Part shown: one piece after another, positions 3,496 to 45,580 of the stretch
Numbering within the stretch: position 1 is the stretch's first letter
Layout: the number at the start of each line of letters is the position of its first letter
DNA from: Bacillota bacterium
GTDB taxonomy: Bacteria > Bacillota > Sulfobacillia > JAJZYS01 > JAJYTV01
Assembly (NCBI GenBank): GCA_021799275.1
Contig: JAJZAT010000019.1
Location: forward strand, 1 to 62,595
Length of the DNA: 62,595 nucleotides
Direction of reading: 5' to 3'
Position numbers and translations under genes: made by a program
Notes under the pieces: model-generated
What the model was told of the DNA's origin: nothing
Seen by the model: only the letters and a program-made list of their open reading frames with translations
Database searches by the model: none

Positions 3496-10549
<7,054 letters not shown>

Positions 10550-22840: not shown

Positions 22841-22860
22841 TTGCATTCACCCCCTCGCAA

Positions 22861-22893
22861 CAGAAAAGCGGTCTTCGCACGCGCGAAGACCGC
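22861..22893 (-). terminator. Attenuator hairpin of the L10 leader
   Basis: On the minus strand GCGGTCTTCGC, a four-base loop and GCGAAGACCGC form a perfect 11-base-pair stem followed by TTTTCTG. It lies between the L10-binding part of the leader and rplJ, where Bacillota leaders have a regulated terminator. Confidence 0.75.
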
Positions 22894-22985
22894 ATAGGCA
22901 CGCTCAGCTGAGAACTGACGTACATCTGCCTCGGCAGGTCGCCCGAAGGGCTGTTATGGCGGTGCCACCTGCGGTCTACGGCGAA
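22868..22985 (-). ncRNA. Ribosomal protein L10 leader
   Basis: Between rplA and rplJ the minus strand contains GTAGACCGCAGGTG and CCTGCCGAGG, conserved elements of the bacterial L10 leader, which binds the L10(L12)4 complex and represses rplJL. The element ends in the attenuator hairpin at 22868-22893. The 5' limit is approximate. Confidence 0.8.
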
Positions 22986-22993
22986 CGGACTAT

Positions 22994-23022
22994 AGTATGG
23001 CGGTGATCTGGACTGGCGTCAA
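22994..23022 (-). promoter_or_regulatory. Promoter for rplJL
   Basis: TTGACG (23017-23022) and CATACT (22994-22999), 17 bases apart on the minus strand, overlapping the rplA stop and just upstream of the L10 leader. The boxes match 5 of 6 and 4 of 6. Confidence 0.5.
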
Positions 23023-44933: not shown

Positions 44934-44962
44934 TTTCCAGCTCATACTCCTTGGGGTATACT
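44934..44962 (+). promoter_or_regulatory. Promoter for the selenoprotein-groES transcript
   Basis: TTTCCA (44934-44939), 17 bases, TATACT (44957-44962). The -10 box matches 5 of 6 and the -35 box 4 of 6. It lies 49 bases before the TTG of the glutaredoxin-like gene. Confidence 0.55.
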
Positions 44963-45011
44963 ACTGTTCGTAGCCCGATCGGGCCCATTTCGCCGCAAGG
45001 AGGAGCAACTC

Positions 45012-45248
45012 TTGGCTGTGGTGCTCTATTCGACCCCGACCTGACCCCATTGCCGGTCGGCAAAGCGCTTCTTGACCGAGCGGCGCATTCCCTTCCGCGA
45101 GGTCAACGTGGCCCACAGCGCCCAAGCGGCGCAGGAGCTGCAGCGCCGATCCGGTCAGACCGGCGTGCCGGTCATCGACGTGAACGGGAAGATCATCATC
45201 GGCTTCGACCAGCCGCGCCTCGTGCGGGCCCTCGGACTTCGCAGCTGA
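45012..45248 (+). CDS. Glutaredoxin-like selenoprotein (Sec at codon 11, TGA 45042-45044)
   Basis: Starting at TTG 45012 (AGGAGG eight bases upstream) the frame reads LAVVLYSTPT, then TGA, then PHCRSAKRFLTERRIPFREV, continues through TGVPVIDVNGKIIIGF and ends at TGA 45246-45248. Apart from the internal TGA it is a complete 78-residue glutaredoxin/NrdH-like domain, and the TGA sits exactly at the first cysteine of the CPHC redox motif, which would make it UPHC. Glutaredoxin-like selenoproteins with a UxxC motif are known in bacteria. Selenocysteine insertion is inferred; no selA, selB or selC gene is in the window. A TGC to TGA mutation is the alternative. groES follows 21 bases later. Confidence 0.83.
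45050..45063 (+). promoter_or_regulatory. Possible SECIS-like hairpin after the internal TGA
   Basis: TTGCC, loop GGTC, GGCAA forms a five-base-pair stem just after the TGA. The GGTC loop resembles the GGUC core of the E. coli fdhF SECIS loop, but the distance from the TGA (about 10 bases to the loop) is shorter than usual. Confidence 0.3.
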
Positions 45249-45269: not shown

Positions 45270-45542
45270 ATGACCATTCACCCGCTTGACGATCGCGTCC
45301 TCGTCCGTCCGGTCGAATTGGAGGAGAAGACCGCTTCGGGCATCATCCTGCCCGACACGGCGAAGGAAAAGCCCCAGCAGGGCATCGTGGTCGCGGTCGG
45401 AACCGACGAGGAACTGCAGAAGGTGCTTTCCGCGGGCGACGAGGTTCTCTACACCAAGTACGGCGGTTCCGAGATCAAGCTCGACGGCCAGACGCACATC
45501 ATTCTTCAGCGCGGCGACATCCTCGGCAAGATCGTCCGCTGA
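45270..45542 (+). CDS. groES: Co-chaperonin GroES
   Basis: Ten-kilodalton lid of the GroEL chaperonin, 90 residues: MTIHPLDDRVLVRPVELEEK, the mobile loop region TASGIILPDTAKEKPQ, and GDEVLYTKYGG then GDILGKIVR. The ATG at 45270 has AAGGAGAG upstream. No groEL follows: a terminator and murE come next. No CIRCE repeat is seen upstream; the gene shares a transcript with the glutaredoxin-like selenoprotein. Confidence 0.96.
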   Translation: MTIHPLDDRVLVRPVELEEKTASGIILPDTAKEKPQQGIVVAVGTDEELQKVLSAGDEVLYTKYGGSEIKLDGQTHIILQRGDILGKIVR

Positions 45543-45546
45543 GCCA

Positions 45547-45580
45547 CGGGACGGGCCGCACGGTCCGTCCCGCACTTTTT
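45547..45580 (+). terminator. Rho-independent terminator after groES
   Basis: Stem CGGGACGG...CCGTCCCG with further pairing inside, ending in CACTTTTT, four bases past the groES stop. It confirms that groES transcription ends without groEL. Confidence 0.88.

Follow-up and report, generated by a model that had tools for sequence, protein, structure and literature searches.

Introduction

Bacterial selenoprotein glutaredoxins with a UxxC motif, belonging to PF00462 and having Cys homologues, form an established family (PMC1088965, PMC1794560, PMC13188914), described since 2005 (PMC1088965) and reviewed in 2026 (PMC13188914), and a preliminary description of the locus reported here had noted that glutaredoxin-like UxxC selenoproteins exist in bacteria. 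In UxxC families of this type, earlier work found replacement of Cys by selenocysteine (Sec) to be the usual direction of change (PMC1794560). Glutaredoxin 1 of Clostridium oremlandii (cGrx1) is a native selenoprotein with a UPxC motif (PMC7642778). Here, we analyse a stretch of 62,595 nucleotides (the window), contig 23 of a 3.14-Mb assembly (G000; 97.5% complete, 0.74% contaminated) from an uncultured Bacillota bacterium, which very probably encodes a dithiol-type glutaredoxin with Sec as its N-terminal catalytic residue (UPHC), the UGA being predicted to be decoded via SelB and a downstream RNA signal.

A glutaredoxin gene hidden by an in-frame TGA

A genuine gene, broken up by standard annotation, lies at positions 45012–45248 of the forward strand: translation table 11 returns fragments only, such as a 58-aa open reading frame at 45072–45248. 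Read through from a TTG start at 45012 to a terminal TGA at 45246–45248, with the in-frame TGA at 45042–45044 as codon 11, the same sequence gives a complete 78-residue product, LAVVLYSTPTUPHCRSAKRFLTERRIPFREVNVAHSAQAAQELQRRSGQTGVPVIDVNGKIIIGFDQPRLVRALGLRS (TGA read as U); interruption, start and stop all lie where the preliminary description had placed them. Its ribosome-binding site of AGGAGG type was likewise borne out, with a Shine–Dalgarno sequence AAGGAGG at 44997–45003, 8 nt 5′ of the TTG, and a similar motif at the equal position before the TTG or ATG of homologues. The promoter that it had described corresponds to a single sigma-70-like site, TTTCCA-N17-TATACT (9/12), at 44934–44962 on the forward strand, where 0.1 were expected, which is a match to the consensus only.

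The Pfam glutaredoxin domain (PF00462) covers the full product and spans the TGA (70.7 bits against a gathering cut-off of 22.9; 1.2e-19), leaving standing the first half of an earlier 'glutaredoxin/NrdH-like' assignment. The second half found less support: NrdH-redoxin (TIGR02194) scored 45 bits, below its curated cut-off of 85.75, compared with 84.5 bits for the YruB-family glutaredoxin (TIGR02196), the best-scoring NCBIfam model, which itself lies just under its curated cut-off of 88.55. Three UXX-star models also scored below their curated cut-offs (NF041212, 59.5 of 66 bits; NF041114, 37.7 of 72; NF041211, 40.1 of 100), such that a hidden selenoprotein was recovered where the closest curated models, both NCBIfam glutaredoxin and UXX-star, miss it. 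An AlphaFold2 model (pLDDT 82) predicts a thioredoxin-type fold in which a helix at residues 12–23 directly follows U11, putting the catalytic residue where helix 1 begins, and the Val-Pro motif (GVP, residues 51–53) is invariant. The closest solved structure by both sequence and fold is that of cGrx1 (PDB 7C10; 2.6e-22, TM 0.85, 38% identity).

The host encodes a complete Sec machinery

The preliminary description had supposed that the organism uses Sec, and had named the absence of Sec machinery as grounds for abandoning the reading; the assembly excludes that outcome, as it encodes a complete set, comprising SelA (522.9 bits), SelB (306 bits against a cut-off of 242), tRNA-Sec (68.7 bits; anticodon TCA by ARAGORN) and two SelD genes above cut-off, each with an in-frame TGA in a GUGCK context. 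Together with a TGA common to an independent assembly (below), this supports the main proposal, namely that the organism decodes Sec and that the gene encodes a UxxC glutaredoxin selenoprotein. The selD pair lies on contigs 59 (L190) and 45 (L191); TGA occupies the Sec position of GUGCK in each copy, and one copy directly follows selA. The tRNA-Sec gene (contig 47, 8853–8944; L052) lies ~2 kb downstream of groEL (5138–6706). A second glutaredoxin-like gene with an in-frame TGA (L053; contig 15, 101604–101807, minus strand) reads VVPLUPHC, and is found in relatives G001, G004, G005 and G009 too.

With these components, SelB carrying Sec-tRNA would decode the UGA at 45042–45044, aided by a signal in the RNA that immediately follows. 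The selenolate of Sec11 would then attack target disulfides or selenenyl-sulfides, Cys14 would resolve the mixed bond, and the enzyme would be reset by a thiol donor.

Sec and Cys alternate at the catalytic codon

When 154 genomes of the class were searched, 63 yielded close homologues, and 62 homologous genes were read at the codon level. The catalytic codon was TGA in 35 and TGC or TGT in 27, with no other codon at that position, so that the proposed alignment of homologues at codon 11 returned both of the residues anticipated, Sec and Cys. TGA falls at exactly codon 11 in 34 other genomes of the class, 33 of them outside the genus of the window; this agreement, and the surplus of synonymous changes in the codons that follow (below), go beyond what chance would give. 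UGA followed by C is a leaky context, and C follows the UGA in 32 of the 35 TGA members, as would suit plain readthrough or decoding as some other amino acid. Against this, Cys is the only residue that replaces the UGA in homologues, a Sec-type tRNA with a TCA anticodon accompanies SelA, SelB and SelD in the genome, and TGA is also a normal gene terminator, including that of the window gene itself; we regard readthrough without Sec as vanishingly improbable.

Within the genus, G003, a separately assembled congener with 94.8% DNA identity over 2.7 kb, has the same TGA, whereas congeners G001, G002 and G005 have TGC, and all three encode SelB above cut-off. A sequencing or assembly error in a TGC codon, which the preliminary description had listed as a possible refutation and which a single base would repair to Cys, is contradicted by this shared TGA in an independent assembly that differs at ~5% of bases, as well as by TGA in the 33 more distant genomes, and is extremely unlikely. 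A gene tree built from 57 distinct rows and 78 columns, in which many forks are weak, joins the two TGA genes (100/97) and sets Cys congeners around them. Their position inside the genus points to a recent, local switch between TGC and TGA at one base and not to gene transfer; we therefore rejected the idea that the Sec gene was acquired horizontally. As all other homologues found in the window's family and order have Cys, a change from Cys to Sec would be the simplest direction, with several losses of Sec to Cys as the alternative. The presence of SelB in TGA and TGC congeners alike makes a one-base gain of Sec directly testable.

Coding constraint downstream of the TGA

Compared with G001, codons 3′ of the TGA carry 12 synonymous and 5 nonsynonymous changes (dN 0.035, dS 0.31). 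Polarised by outgroups, the branch to G000 and G003 has a nonsynonymous:synonymous ratio of 4:5 against 0:5 on the sister branch to G001, all of them small numbers; the TGA branch is faster than its sister, yet under neutral expectation. Both the higher nonsynonymous count on the TGA branch and the TGC of congeners would be expected if the gene were a recent pseudogene, that is, a Cys11 glutaredoxin truncated by a TGC to TGA change before G000 and G003 diverged, with no Sec inserted. The substitution counts by themselves, being small, make a pseudogene improbable but not impossible. More weight attaches to where the TGA lies and to the Sec machinery: out of 78 codons, it is that of the catalytic Cys which the stop has hit, a site at which TGA also stands in 33 genomes from beyond the genus, and the organism has the full apparatus to decode it. 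In addition, neither assembly shows any other stop or frameshift, and the ribosome site, start and neighbouring gene are all retained. Taken with a 4:5 ratio that is below neutral expectation, these observations make decay of the gene very unlikely.

Candidate RNA signals for recoding

The hairpin previously noted after the TGA, TTGCC-GGTC-GGCAA, is present at 45050–45063 on the forward strand, with a loop that opens with GG, but the SECIS role implied for it does not agree with the published bSECIS model, since its spacing of 10 nt from the TGA compares with a published range of 16–37 nt. It is also weak (−5.1 kcal/mol alone), and the same RNA can adopt a more stable, competing fold. In this minimum-energy candidate (45051–45085, forward strand; −17.8 kcal/mol, z −1.5), 19 nt separate the TGA from the apical loop, AGCGCTTC, and a third fold has a GACC loop at 29 nt; both spacings satisfy the published model. 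We scripted the bSECIS criteria (PMC13188914) as a loop of 3–9 nt, a stem of 4–16 bp, G within the first two nucleotides of the loop, a spacing of 16–37 nt and −7.5 kcal/mol. The minimum-energy candidate passed, as did 19 of 35 Sec members, 12 of 27 Cys members and 60 of 100 random TGAs from the GC-rich window, so the model is uninformative for the window gene, and we rejected it as evidence. RNAalifold found no consensus structure and no shared hairpin in either the Sec set (34 sequences) or the Cys set. The Rfam model for eukaryotic-type SECIS (RF00031) had no match in the genome, which is uninformative since it was silent in 14 controls also.

Clear hairpins follow the TGA codons of three other predicted selenoprotein genes in the genome (two SelD and the second glutaredoxin-like gene), with three-base loops of GGA, GGC and GGC. 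From these three cases, SelB in this organism may read a loop beginning with GG, an idea that the GGTC loop fits and the larger fold, with its AGCGCTTC loop, does not. In L053, the RNA 3′ of the TGA forms a perfect CCTCTC-GGC-GAGAGG hairpin. More distant glutaredoxin-like TGA genes (L031, L032, L035, L037 and L041) have a strong post-TGA hairpin of the type GCGAAAGAGTTTCTTTCGC and are clearly unlike the family of the window gene.

Codon choice is the strongest RNA-level sign of a recoding signal. Of 30 Sec members, 29 use CGG for the Arg directly 3′ of the resolving Cys (Arg15 in the window gene; 45054–45056, forward strand), compared with 5 of the 16 Cys members (Fisher 3e-6, relatedness ignored), while CGG makes up 43 of the 119 other Arg codons in Sec members (Fisher 4e-10 against the post-Cys Arg, relatedness again ignored). 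Counted by genus, CGG occurs in every Sec genus with Arg at this position, and one genus also uses CGA. The resolving Cys itself is TGC in all 34 Sec members and in 18 of 23 Cys members. Near-fixation of CGG among Sec members suggests a constraint on the RNA at nt 10–15 after the UGA, where the GGTC-loop hairpin sits, marking the codon as a likely part of the recoding signal and lending indirect support to a bacterial SECIS. We offer tentatively, as a scenario more doubtful than probable, that Sec replaced Cys within the genus when one TGC codon became TGA in a sequence that already carried CGG, and that recoding in the family depends on an atypical signal nearer to the UGA than the bSECIS model allows, with GG at nt 14–15. 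The CGG constraint provides a concrete handle on what SelB requires.

An orphan groES downstream

Directly downstream, as the preliminary description had it, lies a Cpn10/GroES gene (45270–45542, forward strand; Cpn10 6.4e-29). It is, however, an orphan second copy and not that of the chaperonin operon: the gene after it is murE, with no groEL, and the other groES directly precedes groEL on contig 47 (1795–3764 of L052). An intrinsic terminator-like hairpin follows at 45547–45572 on the forward strand. The promoter-like site, two genes and terminator-like hairpin suggest a two-gene transcript, on which the glutaredoxin would probably be co-transcribed with the GroES-like gene. No CIRCE element, the heat-shock control of groES, was found within the window. 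Elsewhere in the window, a ribosomal protein L10 leader was identified at 22853–22999 on the minus strand (Rfam RF00557, 47.8 bits).

In a simple motif scan, groES lay just downstream in 19 of 62 glutaredoxin loci, the 19 being drawn from several families and including Sec as well as Cys forms, indicating that the link between the two genes is old and independent of Sec. A literature search found no link between a selenoprotein glutaredoxin and groES. The role in protein folding that had been drawn from this neighbour is weakened because this groES is an orphan copy lying apart from the genuine groES–groEL operon; a chaperone-related role of the glutaredoxin is no more than possible.

Comparison with known systems

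The window gene appears to add to the known UxxC glutaredoxin selenoproteins a case whose close relatives use either Sec or ordinary Cys. Of added value are the switch between TGA and TGC within one genus, a large family in which Sec and Cys alternate across a class, and the constraint on CGG; approximately 35 Sec-containing members from one Bacillota class join a family with few listed. Like the described UxxC family in PF00462, the protein has UxxC in a glutaredoxin domain and Cys homologues at the same position. It differs in belonging to a YruB-like subgroup, in its spread through one Bacillota class and in its frequent position beside groES. UXX-star proteins, including distant Grx-like protein 1 (NF041212, NF041114; PMC9312934, PMC13188914), share a related Grx-like domain with Sec first in the active site. 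In contrast to the window protein, which has UPHC and falls below the Uxx-star cut-offs, distant Grx-like protein 1 is listed as UxxT and lacks a resolving Cys. In Clostridium (Alkaliphilus) oremlandii, cGrx1 resembles the predicted protein as a native UPxC selenoprotein glutaredoxin, and the two systems differ in the proposed substrate of cGrx1, a Sec-containing MsrA, the MsrA of the window genome having no in-frame stop.
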